Source: Candidatus Thiodiazotropha endoloripes
GTDB lineage: Bacteria; Pseudomonadota; Gammaproteobacteria; Chromatiales; Chromatiaceae
NCBI GenBank assembly: GCA_001709035.1
Contig: LVKA01000019.1
Span: forward strand, 1-64,000
Direction: 5' to 3'
DNA length: 64,000 nt
Below the pieces are notes generated by a model. It had not been told where the DNA came from. It was given only the letters and a program-made list of their open reading frames with translations, and did no database searches. The position numbers were made by a program, and so were the translations under genes. Numbering within the stretch: position 1 is the first letter of the stretch; every line of letters begins with the position of its first letter. Below, one piece after another: positions 1 through 6,051 of the stretch.

Positions 1-118
1 GGGCTCCTTGGGTTGTGGTGACCTTCCACTTTACCGAGCTTCCGGTTTAAAGGGGAGGAGTCCATACCATTGAGACAAGGGGTCTCGTTAACGTAACTGT
101 TATGTGTAAGGAGAAAAC

Positions 119-541
119 ATGAGCACAGTTCTATGGGCAAATGTTCTCATCGACGGGAAGGTTGATTCAGATGAGTCAGATAAATACGCTTTATATAAAT
201 ATACTAAGAAGCTTGATGAAATTTCAAAAAGCCTAAATGTAGTTGGCTTTAAGGCAGCACAAGATATTACCGAAATGCAATGCAATATATCTGATGATGA
301 TTTACCTGAGGGTATGGAATCAACAGATGAATTAATGGCTAAAGAAGGAGTGTGGATCTCAGGGTCTGAAGCAGTAGAAATGCTAGAAATAATTATTTCC
401 CATATTACTGAGAAAGGTGTTCGATTTGGGCTTTTAGGTAATGATCATGAAGAGGTAGTTAGAGAGTTAAAAGAAAGCCTTCTAGTTGCTAAAAGAGCGA
501 AAAGTGAAAATGGCGCGTTTAATTTTTCTGTTGTCATGTGA
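119..541 (+). CDS. cassette-encoded protein of unknown function
   Basis: This encodes a 140-residue soluble, acidic protein with no signal peptide or membrane segment. I do not recognise the family. An N-terminal strand-like segment (VLWANVLIDGKV) is followed by an acidic stretch and a helical C-terminal half containing GVWISGSEAVEMLE and FGLLGNDHEE. A good ribosome binding site (AAGGAG) precedes the ATG. It sits alone between matched recombination-core sequences, 14 bases after the upstream core, as expected of an integron cassette gene. Base composition is markedly AT-rich compared with the chromosome to the right, suggesting acquisition. Cassette proteins of this kind often have no assigned role, and none is claimed here. 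Confidence 0.75.
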   Translation: MSTVLWANVLIDGKVDSDESDKYALYKYTKKLDEISKSLNVVGFKAAQDITEMQCNISDDDLPEGMESTDELMAKEGVWISGSEAVEMLEIIISHITEKGVRFGLLGNDHEEVVRELKESLLVAKRAKSENGAFNFSVVM

Positions 542-543
542 AC

Positions 544-619
544 ACATAACAATCGCATTCACACGGATATTTTGCTCTGTTGTCGCTCCGCAAAATCCCG
601 GTGATGCACGGCGATAGAT
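544..619 (+). repeat. attC-like recombination site after cassette gene 1
   Basis: ACATAAC (544-550) can act as the R'' core. GCATTCAC (555-562) pairs with GTGATGC (601-607) as an L''/L' arm, and GATATTTTGC pairs with GCAAAATCC inside it. The right core GATAGAT (613-619) differs by one base from a perfect GTTAGAT, so this end may be degenerate or inactive. Confidence 0.45.
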
Positions 620-663
620 TTCGGGAATAAGATATGTACGTTGAATCAAAAGAACGATATATA

Positions 664-725
664 TAAGTGAGGTCAGATTAGACTTTTAGAGTTAGTGGTT
701 TGTGGATTAAGCCTCATCTACCACA
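664..725. repeat. GRGGTCAGA short palindromic element, copy 1
   Basis: This block of about 60 bases starts AAGTGAGGTCAGATTAGAC. It aligns over its whole length with a second copy at 1770-1830. Both lie in the non-coding sequence after a cassette gene. In this copy the right arm is degraded (CATCTACCAC instead of CATCTGACCCC). Confidence 0.6.
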
Positions 726-789
726 GTTGTTAGCCATTTATTCATTTAAGCGTTAAATTTTACAGTTGTAAATTATAGTAGGAAAAAAC

Positions 790-939
790 ATGAACACTCA
801 TAGAAATATCATTCTTTTTTTAATGCTTCTTACCGCTATGTTTCTTTCTGGTTGTTCGAAATCATTCAACATCAAAGAGCAAATCCATCATCCATTAAAT
901 ACGTTAGCAGCGTGGTTGGACTTCAAGATTTCTCAATAG
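790..939 (+). CDS. lipoprotein signal-peptide leader frame of the HEAT-repeat gene (frameshifted 5' part)
   Basis: A plausible start ATG at 790, preceded by AGTAGGAAAAAAC, opens a 49-residue frame that begins with a textbook lipoprotein signal peptide: basic start, hydrophobic core LFLMLLTAMF, lipobox LSGC. It continues SKSFNIKEQIHH and stops at 937-939. The long downstream frame (852-1733) has no signal peptide and no ribosome binding site. The two frames most likely form one gene broken by a single-base shift between about 855 and 905, near the repeated motif ATCCATCATCCATT. Sequencing error, a true mutation or programmed shifting cannot be told apart here. Confidence 0.55.
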   Translation: MNTHRNIILFLMLLTAMFLSGCSKSFNIKEQIHHPLNTLAAWLDFKISQ

Positions 940-1733
940 AAGATCTTCGAGAGGGGGATGATAAAGCTATTAGTGTAGGAAGGTTGAATGTCGTATTGGT
1001 TGGAATGGAGAATGAGATAGAGTTTTTAGGAAATAATATTGAGAAAGCGCTTAATTCGCGGGGAATAGCAGCTAAATACAAATCAACAGGTACTAGCGAA
1101 AATATTCAATTTAAGGTTAAAAAATTCCAAATTAGAAATCATAGAACGTCTGCTTTTTCGCCGTATTACACATTTTCCATGCTTAGTGGTGATCTAGTAT
1201 ATGGTGATATGAAAAGGCGAATCACCGCATATTTTAAGAACGGTAAGGTCCCAGTATGGGCATTTCGAGAAGTCGAAGAGCCTTGTTATAACGTGCCAGT
1301 AAGTTTGATGGTTAAAGAGATATCTACAAAAATCAATAGACATGTGTTTGGGCTTCAATCATCTGATGAGAAAGTAGAGAAGTTAGCACACGAGATCAAT
1401 GAAACTAACGAAAAATATAACTATTTAAAGGTCTTAGAGCTCGGCTATACAAATAATCCCTCAGCAATACCTCATTTAGTAGAGTTGATTAATCATCCGG
1501 ATTCTATGATGAGGGCGACCGCCGTATCGTCATTAGGTATGTTGCAAGCGGAAGATCAACTGGATTTATTAAAGACATTCTATGCTGACCATGAAAATAC
1601 ACAGAAATTTATGGCGTTAAAATCAATTGGAGACCTAGAGTCAGATGCATCAAAAGCGTTCTTTGATTCAGTAATTAATTCAGATGACTACAATGACGAA
1701 ATGATTAAAGAGGTTGTTGATTTGTATTTGTAG
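852..1733 (+). CDS. HEAT-repeat protein, body of a probable lipoprotein (5' frameshift)
   Basis: This frame encodes 293 residues if read from TTG at 852, but that start overlaps the lipoprotein leader and has no ribosome binding site. The true product probably begins at 790 in another frame. The N-terminal two thirds show no family I recognise. Roughly residues 190-290 form HEAT-like helical repeats, including IPHLVELINHPDSMMRATAVSSLG, which suggests protein-protein interaction. The gene is AT-rich and is bounded by the matched cores GTTAAAT and ATTTAAC, so it looks like an integron cassette. If the frameshift is real the protein is either cytoplasmic or absent. If it is a sequencing error it is a membrane-anchored lipoprotein. 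Confidence 0.65.
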   Translation: MFEIIQHQRANPSSIKYVSSVVGLQDFSIEDLREGDDKAISVGRLNVVLVGMENEIEFLGNNIEKALNSRGIAAKYKSTGTSENIQFKVKKFQIRNHRTSAFSPYYTFSMLSGDLVYGDMKRRITAYFKNGKVPVWAFREVEEPCYNVPVSLMVKEISTKINRHVFGLQSSDEKVEKLAHEINETNEKYNYLKVLELGYTNNPSAIPHLVELINHPDSMMRATAVSSLGMLQAEDQLDLLKTFYADHENTQKFMALKSIGDLESDASKAFFDSVINSDDYNDEMIKEVVDLYL

Positions 1734-1769
1734 ATAATTTAACCATCAATTTCATTAGCCCAGAAGAAT

Positions 1770-1838
1770 AAGTGGGGTCAGAATAGACTTTTAGAATTGG
1801 TAATTTATGGTTTAAGTTTCATCTGACCCCGGTTTTTT
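1770..1838 (+). repeat. GGGGTCAGA palindromic element, copy 2, possible terminator
   Basis: GGGGTCAGA at 1774-1782 is the exact inverse of TCTGACCCC at 1822-1830, followed by GGTTTTTT. The intact inverted ends plus the T-run would let it terminate transcription of the preceding cassette gene. It is homologous to the copy at 664-725. Confidence 0.6.
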
Positions 1839-1920
1839 AGAAAGTAGGGTGTATGCGATATATCGCGATATCAGTGCATGCTAGATATTCCAATATCAGT
1901 GCGCGTAAGATAATACGCTG

Positions 1921-2385
1921 TTAGCTTTCAAAAAATGATTGGCGAACACTTCATTAAAGAATGGATTATGTATCAGGAAAAAACGTACGATGATGACGAT
2001 ACGGAATTACATTGGACAGATGATCATCTGTTCAACTTAATGCTTAATGGAAAAATCGAGGAGCTTTGGCAGTTCGTTATTCGAGCATATAAAAAAGATC
2101 TCACTCAAAAGGTCATTGGAATTCTATCAGCCGGAGCACTGGAAGATGTTCTGGCTGCAAAAGGCGAAGAATATATTGGGCGAGTAGAATTACTGGCTGC
2201 AAACGATCAAAAGTTCAAATATCTATTGGGTGGAGTGTGGAAAAACGCCATGTCCAATGATGTGTGGTCAAGGGTACAAGCAGCGGCTGAGCCATGGGAG
2301 TAAAAGCTAACAAGCACATTATGGCGTTCGCTTTTGCTCACTCGGACGCACTCCGCTTCGCTGCGTGCTCCGCATATGTAAAACG
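1921..2385 (+). mobile_element. integron-type gene cassette 3
   Basis: GTTAGCT at 1920-1926 and its exact reverse complement AGCTAAC at 2305-2311 flank a single gene. The cassette ends in a well-formed attC-like site whose right core is GTTAATG at 2385-2391. The spacing is compact, nine bases from core to start codon. Confidence 0.55.
1935..2303 (+). CDS. DUF6869-like protein
   Basis: This encodes a 122-residue acidic soluble protein. The C-terminal half carries the conserved pattern of the DUF6869 family as I recall it: AGALEDVL, then LAANDQKF, then LLGGVWKNAMSNDVW near the end. The N-terminal half has the family's WI.Y and acidic loop before HWTDDHLFNLM. The function of the family is unknown. 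The start at 1935 has no obvious ribosome binding site because it lies nine bases after the cassette core; an internal ATG (MYQEKTYDDD) is an alternative. The gene is the single ORF of the third cassette-like unit and is AT-rich relative to the chromosome on its right. Confidence 0.75.
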   Translation: MIGEHFIKEWIMYQEKTYDDDDTELHWTDDHLFNLMLNGKIEELWQFVIRAYKKDLTQKVIGILSAGALEDVLAAKGEEYIGRVELLAANDQKFKYLLGGVWKNAMSNDVWSRVQAAAEPWE

Positions 2386-2391
2386 TTAATG
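2305..2391 (+). repeat. attC-like recombination site after cassette gene 3
   Basis: Order of parts: AGCTAAC core (2305-2311), ACATTATGGCG arm, a long central hairpin in which CGGACGCAC pairs with GCGTGCTCCG, the opposing arm CGCATATGT, and the right core GTTAATG (2385-2391). Nested pairing with outer core and inner arm separated by an unpaired spacer is the attC architecture. At 87 bases it falls inside the known size range. Confidence 0.6.
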
Positions 2392-2454
2392 TCTGCTTTC
2401 TCTAAGTACTGAGATTATCCTCAATGTCAGCTTCGGTCGCGTAGCAGGCGTCTA

Positions 2455-2509
2455 AGCTAACGACTCGCTATGTCTCCTTTTACCGGGACGGAAACTATGA
2501 CTGTTAGAT
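2455..2509 (+). repeat. possible short attC remnant at the end of the array
   Basis: AGCTAAC at 2455-2461 and a perfect GTTRRRY core, GTTAGAT, at 2503-2509 enclose about 40 bases with weak pairing (GTCTCC against GGGAC). It may be the last, ORF-less cassette end. The 2392-2454 stretch before it holds nothing recognisable. Confidence 0.3.
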
Positions 2510-2554
2510 GACATCAAAACTAGACTTTCAATCTGTCAGATCAAGTTCAGACTT

Positions 2555-2746
2555 CTACACTTTACCACTGAATACGGCCAGTCCCGCAACGCAACCATCC
2601 AGATCGGTAACTCTGAGTGCTGGCAAAGGCGCAGCCGGATCAAGCCTGACAGTATGGATGATATTTGATAAAGCGGCTTCATCTGAGGAAATGAATACGA
2701 ACTCTTCACAGAGTGTTTTATCCTGATACGACTCAGGTCTCAGCAT
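2555..2746 (-). CDS. short hypothetical protein
   Basis: This is a 63-residue reading frame that starts inside the last codons of the SRPBCC gene (14-base overlap) and ends close to the array boundary. It has no recognisable domain, and the end could have been lost when the neighbouring array was inserted. The C-terminal part, VTDLDGCVAGLAVF, looks protein-like but could also be chance. The call is weak. Confidence 0.3.
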   Translation of the reverse strand: MLRPESYQDKTLCEEFVFISSDEAALSNIIHTVRLDPAAPLPALRVTDLDGCVAGLAVFSGKV

Positions 2747-3224
2747 TCTGATAAGGTGATCCTTTACCCGTTTCCAGATAATCTTTCAAACTACTGGTAA
2801 AATAGAAGTTCCAGCCCTGCTCACAGATCTCATAGCAGTCAAGTTCAGACACAAGACCCTCATGGAGGAAATCGATCTGAGTACCTCCATCAACCGCTTG
2901 CAACTCCCACTTGAGTTTTGTTCCTTCCCACTCCTTCTCGATTGAGGCAGGCAAACCTTGATGGAGATGATGGGCTTCAATACAGAGCAACTCTATCAGT
3001 CTGTTCTCAGACAGCCCAATAACCTCCATTTTCCAATAGGTTGAATCGAATCTGAAAGTTACTCGATCGCCAATCTGAGTGATAACGTTGCAATTCGTAG
3101 TCCACCACTGATCGATCTCTGCGGTAAGCGCCTGGAATGTAATTGCCGGCGTGGCAGAAACGACAATTTGACGGGTAAAGCCGAGTGTCAAAGCGTAAAC
3201 CCTCATTGTAAGTTTTATGATCAA
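2733..3224 (-). CDS. SRPBCC (START-like) domain protein
   Basis: This encodes 163 residues. The pattern is that of the AHSA1/SRPBCC fold: VVSATPAITFQALT as the first strand and helix, DQWWT in place of the usual W at the cavity mouth, FRF and YWKMEVIGL strands, then GTQIDFLHEGL, and a C-terminal long helix ending SSLKDYLETGKG. Such proteins bind small hydrophobic ligands or modulate stress responses, but no ligand can be assigned. An in-frame ATG six codons downstream (MRVYALTLG) is an equally likely start. It is the first of a minus-strand run of unrelated small enzymes. Confidence 0.75.
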   Translation of the reverse strand: MIIKLTMRVYALTLGFTRQIVVSATPAITFQALTAEIDQWWTTNCNVITQIGDRVTFRFDSTYWKMEVIGLSENRLIELLCIEAHHLHQGLPASIEKEWEGTKLKWELQAVDGGTQIDFLHEGLVSELDCYEICEQGWNFYFTSSLKDYLETGKGSPYQNAET

Positions 3225-3374
3225 GCGGACTCAAACACCGAACCTTACATCGGCTGGCCCTGCGCATGAATCACCCACCATTGCAGTATAGATGACTCAT
3301 CGGTATGAGTAATGCCACACTTGCGCCCACAGCTTGAAGTCAACCAGGACATGTAAACAATGTTCCAATTCACC

Positions 3375-3878
3375 CTAGGGTGATTCAGCCACACCACCCA
3401 ATGAAACAACCTTATCCTTAAGGTTGACTTTTCCGGCCTGAATTACACTTGCAACGATCCCGCCATGACCACGCATTGCGTTATAGCCTCCCTCACCCAA
3501 AGCCTTCTCCATCTTACTGCAGGGGTGACAAAGCCCTCTGAACTCGAGAACCGCCTCACCAACCTGAAAGCGTTTATCTTTCAGTGCCAGCAGATTGATA
3601 CCCGACACCACAATATTTCGGCGTAACAGCTCAGGCAACAGCTCTTTTCGGTGAAGACATCCTGCTATGACCGGTAGATGCTCATATTGAATCAGTGTCA
3701 CTTGCCTGGCACTCTCGGCACGACCTTTGAAACGGTCCCCGACCAAGCCTTTTCCCAGCTCGACCATCACCGATTGGAGAGAGCGCATGGGTTCACCACG
3801 TGCAGGCCTCACACCGATCCATTCCACGCAGCCTCTCTGCGGTAGATGCATCATCAGAGCTTTTAGCGGTTTGTGCAT
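3375..3878 (-). CDS. MOSC-domain protein
   Basis: This encodes 167 residues. It matches the MOSC (molybdenum cofactor sulfurase C-terminal) fold, with GLVGDRFKG near the N-terminus, QVTLIQYEHL, RRNIVVSGINL in the middle and the conserved cysteine segment GLCHPCSKME, followed by MRGHGGIVASVIQAG. MOSC proteins handle sulfur or bind molybdenum cofactor. This stand-alone form resembles the YiiM/YuaD group, some of which reduce N-hydroxylated compounds. The substrate is unknown. It lies 24 bases downstream of the histidine phosphatase gene, so the two may be cotranscribed. Confidence 0.85.
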   Translation of the reverse strand: MHKPLKALMMHLPQRGCVEWIGVRPARGEPMRSLQSVMVELGKGLVGDRFKGRAESARQVTLIQYEHLPVIAGCLHRKELLPELLRRNIVVSGINLLALKDKRFQVGEAVLEFRGLCHPCSKMEKALGEGGYNAMRGHGGIVASVIQAGKVNLKDKVVSLGGVAESP

Positions 3879-3902
3879 ATTCGACCGTTTCTGAAGTTCA
3901 AC

Positions 3903-4475
3903 TCACTCTGTTGTCACGCACATTTCGTAGCTACCGAACTCCCAGTATTTTCTTCCTGGACTTGAAGGGCCATTCCAACCCAATGCCCTCAGTTCCTTGG
4001 CAATATAGTGATTGAGAAAACCATGACCAACCAACAGCACGGCATGATGTTTCGACGCCAACTCAATCAACCTCTCTGCGGCCGACTTTGCTCTCGACCT
4101 GGCTTCCCGGTATGACTCACTGTTTTTTGAAAATCCCATATACCACAGACTTCTCAATACAATGACCCATATTTCCAACGGTAGTCTTAGCGAAGTTTTG
4201 TCAAAATAGGGCAGATTCAACTCACGAAAGAGTCGATCTGAGAAGTCCACCTGAGCCACGCCAAGCGCCTTTGCCGAATCCAAGGATCGAGCCAAATCAC
4301 TGCAAACGAAACAGTGGTGATGTGTTATCTGCTGAACAGATTCCGCCGGTGGTGAATCGTTGATAGTTGCACCATCATACTCCCTTTCCAGCTGTTTAAA
4401 CTCATAGCCTCTAACACTTCGTTGCCACTCAAAATCAGGACTGCCATGTCTTAGTAGCGTTATACGCATAACCAA
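3903..4475 (-). CDS. histidine phosphatase family protein
   Basis: This encodes 190 residues. The phosphohistidine motif LLRHGSPDF is at residues 7-15 and the second catalytic histidine is in LLVGHGFLNHY near residue 155. A conserved arginine is in FVCSDLARSLDSAK. The family (phosphoglycerate mutase-like, branch 1) removes phosphate from small molecules or phosphoproteins. The substrate cannot be read from sequence. A hydrophobic stretch (LEIWVIVLRSLWYMGF) in the insert domain is unusual and may lie against a membrane or ligand. The start MVMRIT leaves an alternative ATG two codons in. Confidence 0.85.
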   Translation of the reverse strand: MVMRITLLRHGSPDFEWQRSVRGYEFKQLEREYDGATINDSPPAESVQQITHHHCFVCSDLARSLDSAKALGVAQVDFSDRLFRELNLPYFDKTSLRLPLEIWVIVLRSLWYMGFSKNSESYREARSRAKSAAERLIELASKHHAVLLVGHGFLNHYIAKELRALGWNGPSSPGRKYWEFGSYEMCVTTE

Positions 4476-4599
4476 TAATCACCAGTTGTATAACCCTCAT
4501 TCATCCCTGCACTGGAGGAACTCGATGGTTCTGGAATGATGGATTACCTCTGAATACTACCGCCTGTTAATCAATCAACAAGCGAACCTGATGCACAGA

Positions 4600-5124
4600 C
4601 TACCAGAGCTCGCGCTTACCGAAGGCCTCTGCACATCGCACTTTGCCTTTAATGTCGCTGACCGCTCCCGGGTTCAATTCCAATACCATCCAGGCCTCCG
4701 GATAGTCGATCTGATAGGGTGGCTCAATTCCATGTCCAGCCCAGAAGCCAACACGCTGGTAGTAGTTGGGATCACCAAGAACCAGCACGAAATCGGCCTG
4801 CAGTTTCCTTGCTCTTTCAATACCCTCTTTGATCAGAGCAGTACCGATACCTGATTTCTGATAGGCCTCGCGTACAGCCAAAGGGGCCAGAATGACTCCC
4901 GAACAATTCAAAGCACCTTCTATGGTCACAGAACTGAAGAGAATATGCCCTACAATCTGCCCCTCATCCATAGCCACCAGTGAGATCAGTGGCTTCACCG
5001 ATTCATCACGAAGCAGATCAGCAGCCAACCTGGCTACACTTTCGCCTTCAGTTGCACCAAATACCTGCTTATGCAGCTCGATGACTGCATCTACATCTTC
5101 ATTCGCAGACGCTTTTATTATCAC
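4600..5124 (-). CDS. GNAT family N-acetyltransferase (YhbS-like)
   Basis: This encodes 174 residues. The GNAT acetyl-CoA loop is clear: LAPLAVREAYQKSGIGTALI around residues 81-101, followed by VLVLGDPNYYQRVGF, the signature of the YhbS-like subgroup. The acceptor substrate is unknown; members acetylate amino groups of small molecules or proteins in the cytoplasm. The start codon overlaps the stop of the upstream lipoprotein gene by four bases (ATGA), so both are translated from one message. Confidence 0.88.
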   Translation of the reverse strand: MIIKASANEDVDAVIELHKQVFGATEGESVARLAADLLRDESVKPLISLVAMDEGQIVGHILFSSVTIEGALNCSGVILAPLAVREAYQKSGIGTALIKEGIERARKLQADFVLVLGDPNYYQRVGFWAGHGIEPPYQIDYPEAWMVLELNPGAVSDIKGKVRCAEAFGKRELW

Positions 5125-5597
5125 TCTTTTTCAGCCCACTCACGAATCTTGCGTTTGAGTTTTTTCTCGACCTTCTCGCCGATCTCATCCCACTCCCCAT
5201 CCGACCCAGCTGGCGCATCCTCTTCTGCCCACTCCTTAAGCCTGCGCATCACTTTATTCTCCACTTTGTCACCGATCTCATCCCACTCTTTATCACTGCT
5301 CGCCTCCTGCTTTGTCTTACAGCTGGCATGACAACCACCACCCCAGACCATGATGACACCAAGCAGGAATCCGAAATCGTACCAACCCCCACTGTTGTCC
5401 AGTTCATAGACAACCACATTGTCGTTGAATAGATGGATTACCAGACTGATCACAGAGATCACACCGTGCCAGAGCCCCCAAAAGAATCCCGCTGGATTCT
5501 CCGCGGTGAACTGAGAATCTCCCGCCGTACAGGATGCAAGCGTTACAGCCAACAGTAAAACCAGCATATATCTTAATAGTGAATAGACCTTGTTCAT
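5121..5597 (-). CDS. lipoprotein with membrane segment and duplicated amphipathic repeat
   Basis: I chose the ATG at 5597 because AGGGGGGT lies just upstream and the protein then opens MNKVYSLLRYMLVLLLAVTLASC, a lipoprotein signal. Next come a hydrophobic stretch (HGVISVISLVIHLF), the segment DFGFLLGVIMVWGGGCHASC, and a C-terminal half made of two tandem copies of a 24-residue charged helix (EWDEIGDKVENKVMRRLKEW and EWDEIGEKVEKKLKRKIREW). This pattern occurs in small uncharacterised gammaproteobacterial proteins. The function is unknown. It is translationally coupled to the GNAT gene. Confidence 0.75.
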   Translation of the reverse strand: MNKVYSLLRYMLVLLLAVTLASCTAGDSQFTAENPAGFFWGLWHGVISVISLVIHLFNDNVVVYELDNSGGWYDFGFLLGVIMVWGGGCHASCKTKQEASSDKEWDEIGDKVENKVMRRLKEWAEEDAPAGSDGEWDEIGEKVEKKLKRKIREWAEKE

Positions 5598-5670
5598 TGC
5601 ACCCCCCTTACCCACCAGACTCACTGAAACTCACTAACGAACTCATAATATTCTGATTTTTAGTGGACAT

Positions 5671-6051
5671 TTAACCTTCTGAGTGAAGCCCGAACATATT
5701 ACCCTCAGTATCGATTACGATCGAAATAAAACCATATTCGCCAATAGACATCTTGGCCTGATGTATCCGCCCTCCGGCCTTCTCCACACGTGACTCCTCT
5801 GTCGCACAGTCTTCACAACCGAAATAGACCAGTGTGCTGTTACCACCAGCAGAGAATCCCTCCATCTTCACCAGCGCACCAGGAGCCCCATAACGCTCCA
5901 TATCTGAAGGAAATGACCACATCTCCACCCCTGATTCGGTTGGAACAACGAGTTTTTCCAGGGAAGTATCAAGCACCGTCTGGTAAAAGTTTTTTGCTCT
6001 CTCCATATCGTCCACATAGATCTCAAACCAGCCTACAGGATTGTTTTCCAT
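5671..6051 (-). CDS. VOC (glyoxalase/bleomycin-resistance) family protein
   Basis: This encodes 126 residues from the ATG at 6051. A longer in-frame start at 6243 would overlap the next gene and add a non-homologous leader, so it was rejected. It is a single VOC unit: PVGWFEIYVDDMERAKNFYQ at the N-terminus, GALVKMEGF in the middle, TLVYFGCEDC opening the second module, and the terminal GFISIVIDTEGNMFGLHS carrying the metal-side glutamate region. It resembles the short PhnB/YdcJ-like lactoylglutathione-lyase relatives. No reaction can be assigned. Confidence 0.85.
   Translation of the reverse strand: MENNPVGWFEIYVDDMERAKNFYQTVLDTSLEKLVVPTESGVEMWSFPSDMERYGAPGALVKMEGFSAGGNSTLVYFGCEDCATEESRVEKAGGRIHQAKMSIGEYGFISIVIDTEGNMFGLHSEG

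Follow-up and report, generated by a model that had tools for sequence, protein, structure and literature searches.

The left end of a 64,000-nucleotide stretch of Candidatus Thiodiazotropha endoloripes DNA (hereafter the window; positions 1–64,000 of contig C18, beginning at base 1 of that contig) carries three genes arranged like the gene cassettes of an integron, each running from a start core to a recombination site (attC). The genus comprises symbionts of lucinid clams; the genome (G000) amounts to 4.87 Mb in 25 contigs, and it was studied within a set of 56 genomes, itself included, of which 22 belong to the same genus and 34 do not. All three cassettes read on the forward strand. Cassette 1 (100–619) opens with the core TTATGT, contains an open reading frame (ORF) at 119–541 (140 amino acids, AA) and has its R'' core at 544–550; cassette 2 (753–1743) opens with TTAAAT, contains a frameshifted gene for a HEAT-repeat lipoprotein and has its R'' at 1737–1743; and cassette 3 (1921–2385) opens with TTAGCT and contains a DUF6869 gene (1935–2303). 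A preliminary description of the same DNA had proposed that each gene is bracketed by its own exact pair of seven-base cores, and all six cores are where it had placed them: GTTATGT at 99 with ACATAAC at 544, GTTAAAT at 752 with ATTTAAC at 1737, and GTTAGCT at 1920 with AGCTAAC at 2305. Its statement that the second core follows three to two bases after the stop holds for genes 1 and 3 (three and two bases past the last stop-codon base) and not for gene 2 (four bases).

Core pairs and attC sites

We compared this arrangement with 552 control ORFs of at least 100 AA, drawn from window positions 3001–64,000 and from 20 other loci of the same genome. With an upstream limit of 120 bp, a start core complementary to the gene's own R'' was found for all three window genes and for 4 of the 552 controls, and random AT-rich flanks (60 bp) passed the core-pair rule in 34 of 20,000 cases. 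Three of the four control matches lie at contig ends that are themselves cassette-like (C7 left, C25 right and C18 right), where the attC models described below gave three matches, one match and no match, respectively; the fourth, on C1, has the non-consensus core GTTTGTG.

Two attC covariance models were used, R1 from 18 aligned attCs of other arrays of the same genome and of the complete genome G004, with the window left out, and R2 built on 57 matches outside the window. Over 540–2510, where the preliminary description had suggested running such models, they gave a strong match at one site, a weak one at a second and none at the third. The attC of cassette 3 (2305–2391, forward strand; R'' AGCTAAC, R' GTTAATG) is the sole R1 match in the 64 kb up to E 10 (41.5 bits, E 2e-7; 43.1 bits with R2) and the only complete attC of the three. 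The attC of cassette 1 (544–619, forward strand) appears decayed, with GATAGAT as its R' core in place of GTT...; it is the second-best R1 match when positions 1–3000 are searched without filters (11 bits, E 0.14, with ends exactly as expected) and scores 14.2 bits with R2 (E 0.79 over 124,853 bases). Between 1737 and 1926, R1 gave no match, the unfiltered search of 1–3000 included, and the attC region of cassette 2 (1744–1919, forward strand) is disrupted and holds the second copy of a two-copy repeat and a 25-bp tandem repeat (1849–1902, 2.2 copies). This corrects the preliminary description in two respects: gene 2 is frameshifted, and a single attC is complete, that of cassette 1 being decayed and that of cassette 2 disrupted. 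The first base of R'' is separated from the next GTT by 208 nt for gene 1 and by 183 nt for gene 2, distances that are long because extra sequence is present, including the two-copy repeat, which lies at 663–731 in the spacer following cassette 1 (620–751, forward strand) and again within 1755–1850. We rejected this repeat (663/1768) as a dispersed repetitive extragenic palindrome, having found no other copy of it in the genome.

Cassette genes and their patchy occurrence

The gene labels given earlier (unknown, HEAT repeat, DUF6869-like) agree with Pfam. The 140-AA protein of gene 1 has no Pfam family above cut-off and 281 matches, its own included, the named ones including Candidatus Thiodiazotropha taylori, Rhabdochromatium marinum, Vibrio parahaemolyticus and Pleionea; its predicted structure is confident (predicted local distance difference test score 95.5), with no PDB match at E <= 0.001 (best match E 0.78) and none in PADLOC. 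Gene 2 matches HEAT_2 (1.5e-10) and is frameshifted after its lipoprotein signal, which is read from 790 in one frame, the body following at 852–1733 in another; intact relatives of 314 AA exist. We took its weak PADLOC matches to HEAT-containing models (best 0.0017) as repeat likeness. Gene 3 matches DUF6869 (6.5e-30); another DUF6869-like cassette, 27% identical to it, lies in an array on contig C19, and a relative in genome G016 is followed by an attC match.

Conservation of the three genes in fixed order across distant relatives, which the preliminary description had named as evidence against its reading, was not seen: among the 56 genomes, at the E-value limits of the searches, gene 1 occurs in one genome other than its own, gene 2 in none and gene 3, weakly, in two. 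The one further copy of cassette 1 (78% identity; G025:C7:26094–26510, L180) stands alone amid chromosomal genes and is bounded by its cores. Because its homology stops, by eye, at TTATGT and ACATAA, and no attC match was found within the fetched locus, it is likely a cassette inserted off-site, outside an integron.

An integrase on a neighbouring contig

The preliminary description expected the integron, with its integrase, to continue to the left, and the left edge of the window is the end of the contig (C18 base 1). Three matches to NCBIfam TIGR02249 in the genome exceed the cut-off of 265 bits: C3:272–1210 (398.7 bits), C3:17562–18485 and C21:303075–304013. The first belongs to an intact intI at C3:218–1228 (398.9 bits against the same cut-off) that reads away from the left end of C3, with an attI (72–130) between it and the contig end; past the attI a cassette begins, of which about 22 codons precede the break of the contig, and the attI assignment relies on position and on likeness to the site beside the intI of G004. 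The second represents another type of integron, whose attI region is without the hairpin described below. The third has one in-frame stop; this copy, at the right end of C21 (L011 8000–9252), is 94% identical in protein to the C3 integrase and lies beside an attI interrupted by an insertion sequence (IS).

A relative without the array, G002, points to the likely place of the C3 integrase. The reverse complement of C18 up to window base 2641 corresponds to G002 L267 2–2782 (86% identity), C3 1623–18441 corresponds to L267 3038–20000 in pieces of 80–94% identity, and a further 49-bp match sets C3:1584 at L267 2850. Both flanks (the window from 2641 onward and C3 from 1584–1623 onward) therefore adjoin in G002 in matching orientation, and this 20-kb stretch of G002 has no attC model match at E <= 0.01 and no hairpin. 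Because the flanks adjoin in G002 and the left end of C3 bears an intact intI and attI, we infer from this alignment that C18-left joins C3-left. The integron, which G002 lacks, would then be flanked on one side by the AHSA1 gene and on the other by a gene encoding a protein of 126 AA (MSELYSEHP...), and the capturing integrase is most likely the one on this neighbouring piece of the same genome.

In the complete genome G004 the whole order, from an intI (83% identity) through attI and array to the terminus, stands in one piece, and a transposon-like insert lies behind the attI. That insert (L169 4300–6540), directly after the attI hairpin, has a gene resembling a tyrosine recombinase (26.6% to IntI) and one that by eye resembles an IS91-type transposase; a comparable recombinase match stands behind another hairpin at L245:4790.

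Array terminus, chromosomal flank and the insertion sequence at the left edge

Cassette 3 is followed by a terminus conserved in the genus (2386–2440, forward strand): window 2384–2440 equals the array end of G004 (98% over 57 bp), and comparable array ends stand behind an attC or a short attC in G004, G005, G008, G014, G016 and G020. A dispersed genus repeat that is not specific to integrons overlaps it (2420–2560, forward strand), with further copies at C19:87673, C19:188090 and C7:1025866 and in relatives. Beyond lies a chromosomal flank (2641–5964, reverse strand) with AHSA1, MOSC, His_Phos, GNAT and further genes by Pfam, collinear with the array-free G002 at 86% over 3369 bp. No Rfam family matched at gathering thresholds. 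We looked for terminal inverted repeats at the borders of the integron and claim none: among 20 pairs, some beat almost all shuffles (C21/G008C9, exceeded by 0/500 shuffles; C21/G004, 1/500; C21/window, 2/500; G004/C19R, 2/500), but most did not. A weak inverted likeness between window 2384–2440 and the sequence beyond intI, present in some of these 20 pairs, might be the remains of the ends of a mobile unit.

At the other side of the array, positions 1–72 (reverse strand) are the transposase-proximal end of an IS of the IS110/IS1111 family, with a subterminal inverted repeat at 54–65 and an outer 7 bp at 66–72; its transposase would start left of the window and read leftwards. Window 1–109 is 99% identical to the right end of C19, and a diverged copy (82%) lies at C19:104.6 kb. 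Family assignment comes from a complete copy in G008:C4 (L238, about 2530–3892; subterminal repeat at 2535 and 3874), the window holding one end only: the G008 copy has subterminal inverted repeats and a transposase of the DEDD type on the minus strand, with an in-frame stop after about 60 codons (by eye) and an open 280-AA piece matching PF02371 (3e-16) and PF01548 (1.9e-8). PMC11187229 gives IS1111 ends as 7 bp on the left and 3 bp on the right, and under this rule the flanks of the G008 copy, ...TAACG and AGACAGGGGGTCTCG..., meet as an uninterrupted hairpin. Copies of the other IS end are found within a site that closes a cassette at C19:191.3 kb and within the attI at the end of C21. The element therefore appears, to judge from its flanks, to target the attI-like hairpin.

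The IS end abuts the right part of such a site in the window (AGACAAGGGGTCTCGTTAACGTAACTG, 73–99, forward strand), which matches the C3 attI over 33 bp at 93.9% and belongs to a unit that recurs in attIs and short attCs of the genus. The hairpin pattern occurs at 69–90 with two mismatches, where 0.08 matches are expected in the window at up to three mismatches. We infer that 73–99 is the attC of a preceding cassette, interrupted by the IS.

Weighing the explanations

Because of the core pairs, the attC model match, an intI over cut-off, the collinearity with G002, the terminus shared with G004 and the patchy cassettes, we consider it very probable that window 73–2440 forms the far end of a sedentary chromosomal integron. 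The preliminary description's integron cassette array is thus upheld, with an intI and attI now located in the genome, and four features are added to it: the IS end at 1–72, the attI-type site at 73–99, the two decayed attCs and the frameshift in gene 2. Several observations weigh on the other side. Model support is strong for one attC of three, weak for one and absent for one, so that two are not convincing; as plain single-stranded DNA, 2305–2391 folds no better than its shuffles (z 0.22); and no window pair passed a scan of hairpin energies with forced pairs, which several sites of other arrays failed too. With a 60-bp upstream limit the core-pair rule takes in two of the three window genes against 3 of the 552 controls, gene 2 falling out since it passes only with the signal start at 790 and the rule applied to the controls uses the first start of the open frame, 852. 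Further, no contig spans C18-left to C3-left, the right end of C19 has the same IS end, which leaves room for other partners such as C21 right, and twelve small contigs of the genome were masked.

The last points bear on where the array belongs. It might be part of the integron at the right end of C21, with its stop-broken integrase and IS-interrupted attI, joined through the IS, the C3 integrase then serving elsewhere; C21 does break off within an attI that holds the opposite end of this IS, window 1–72 is the transposase-proximal IS end, and the shared IS ends had at first led us to this link. We dropped it after the comparison with G002, which sets the C18 flank beside the C3 flank in matching orientation, and C19-right, with the same IS end, is an equally good partner for C21; we now regard it as improbable. 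Slightly less probable again is a cluster of attC sites lacking integron integrases (CALIN), left from a lost integron and with no adjacent integrase serving the array. Such a relic would be in keeping with the two poor attCs, the frameshift in one cassette and the IS found at the edge, and C19:188–194 kb resembles one in having an attI without a typical IntI alongside, but an intact intI and attI lie on the very flank that adjoins in G002. That these are ordinary AT-rich genes with chance palindromes draws on the shortness of the core motifs and on the two weak or missing attCs of three; against the control rate of 4/552, an attC model E of 2e-7 and a shared array terminus, we judge it already refuted, with hardly any probability left to it. 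On C19 itself, the cassette array with its lone attI (188000–194300, L021) is closed by the genus repeat, and it looks like a relic integron.

A canonical IntI recombines the bottom strand of an attC with attI, the exchange falling between G and TT, so that the newest cassette lies beside attI and the oldest at the terminus. In the sedentary integron that we favour, cassettes would have entered at attI one by one, the TTRRRY start and the attC RYYYAA closing each circle, so that the three window cassettes, farthest from attI and beside the terminus, are presumably the oldest. An IS1111-type element would have interrupted the attI-like attC just upstream of cassette 1. Cassettes 1 and 2 would be poorly excisable because the attCs after them are decayed or disrupted, leaving the distal end of the array partly frozen while the attI end may still be able to accept cassettes.

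attI-like hairpins as cassette sites

The attI beside the C3 intI contains AACGAGACAGGGGGTCTCGTTAACGTCACTG, and the region folds as a single strand to one hairpin (z -5.7). With one mismatch allowed, the hairpin pattern was found in 15 of the 56 genomes, the own genome among them, all of the same genus (15/22 vs. 0/34 of the others); a reversed control pattern was found once. We tabulated six arrays with 45 cassette sites, namely 19 short hairpin sites and 26 classical attCs, one of the latter (G004 6607) coming from the energy scan rather than the model and at least one attC of the C3 array (L009:19575) being left out. The short sites, with attI-like sequence in place of a classical attC, occur in arrays of G000, G004, G008 and G019, and the window shows only the right part of one. 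The R'' before the spacer is the exact complement of its own cassette start in 17 of 19 short sites and agrees in at least five of six bases in all 19 (shuffled partners: mean 1.6 exact, at most 8). Taking an unlisted boundary near L169:9909 would turn G004 10607, one of the two misses, into an exact match, a post hoc choice outside the count.

In a comparison of 30-nt units across five arrays, 16 of the 18 short sites lie within 0–2 bases of the attI in the same array or genome, and the other two, both in G016, are 3 and 8 of 30 bases away; in four of the five arrays the short sites closely copy the attI of the array or genome. When attIs were swapped among arrays, 2 of 120 arrangements were as good as the true one, itself included, the attIs of G008 and G000 being interchangeable; without the C19 array the true arrangement was the best of 24, and with the C3 attI in place of the C19 site the result was again 2/120. 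An intI could be seen for just two of these arrays, that of G004 and, in broken form, that of G016; the attIs of G008:C9 and G019:C34 were recognised by the leader (...AGGTCTTGCTATAAA) that elsewhere stands between intI and attI, and the C19 site used as attI is IS-interrupted and could be a short attC.

We suggest tentatively, as a possibility that we consider less likely than not, that in an integron lineage of this genus one compact hairpin serves as both attI and attC, the resident attI sequence being copied onto cassettes behind their own R''. Such sites may form by recombination of R'' with the left box of attI, as proposed for delta-attI cassettes. For the sites ending in AATAAAGCTG (C10, G016, G002, G003 and, with a variant hairpin, the right array of C3), none of the attIs seen is a match, which argues against an origin that is purely local, or else in favour of transfer between species.

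Relation to known systems

The proposed integron resembles sedentary chromosomal integrons in its IntI over the TIGR02249 cut-off, adjacent attI, R''/L''/L'/R' attC layout and self-matching cores, and in its cassettes, which run in one direction, mostly carry small genes of unknown function and are patchy in occurrence. It departs from the usual sedentary integron in that its attI is itself a short hairpin much like many of the attCs, in that one genome contains several integrons and fragments of arrays, and in that the arrays share one short terminus. We take the left end of the window to be a real integron end, ordinary in kind, in a lineage made unusual by its attI-like attCs. An IS1111-attC group, reportedly described by Tetu and Holmes in 2008 and by Post and Hall in 2009, is said to insert in integron attC sites; the IS here is like that group in its DEDD-type transposase family, subterminal inverted repeats and insertion in integron sites, and unlike it in its target, since it sits in the left arm (AACG/AGAC) of the attI-like hairpin, whether this belongs to an attI or to a compact attC.

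Delta-attI-type cassettes of class 1 and 2 integrons, in which an attI-derived site replaces the classical attC, are treated in PMC12901181, which proposes that the L-box of attI recombines with R'' and counts 110 of them among 1742 complete mobile integrons, in most cases with 17 nt of attI. The cassettes described here likewise end in an attI-like site instead of a classical attC; in contrast to delta-attI, the sites measure about 35–40 nt including the hairpin, are found on many cassettes of chromosomal arrays and keep R''. Delta-attI-type cassettes, known from class 1 and 2 integrons, would thereby be extended to chromosomal integrons. In titles and abstract openings of the literature on attI, attC, hairpins, IS110, IS1111 and multi-integron symbionts we met no report of an attI equal to attC in chromosomal integrons, an absence not proven thereby.

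PMC12901181 also names the question of how gene cassettes arise as a gap still to be filled. Cassette sites bearing the signature of a neighbouring attI offer a direct, testable case outside drug-resistance integrons; if the suggestion is true, an integron writes its docking site onto the genes that it captures, and the creation of attCs could be watched in chromosomal integrons. For the window, the lack of a visible integrase beside the array can be accounted for by a contig that breaks off within an integron, and a relative without the array can point to the likely missing half of a broken one.

Shared sequences at other contig ends

The right ends of C3, C18 and C25 (L014, L053 and L055) all break off in one shared sequence that starts after a cassette R'' (AAGCGACTGTGG...), the final bases of C18 being identical to those of C3 and C25, and the left ends of C7 and C10 (L047 and L032) begin with one shared sequence that runs into an attC. 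These shared ends are probably a second multi-copy element inserted in attC sites.

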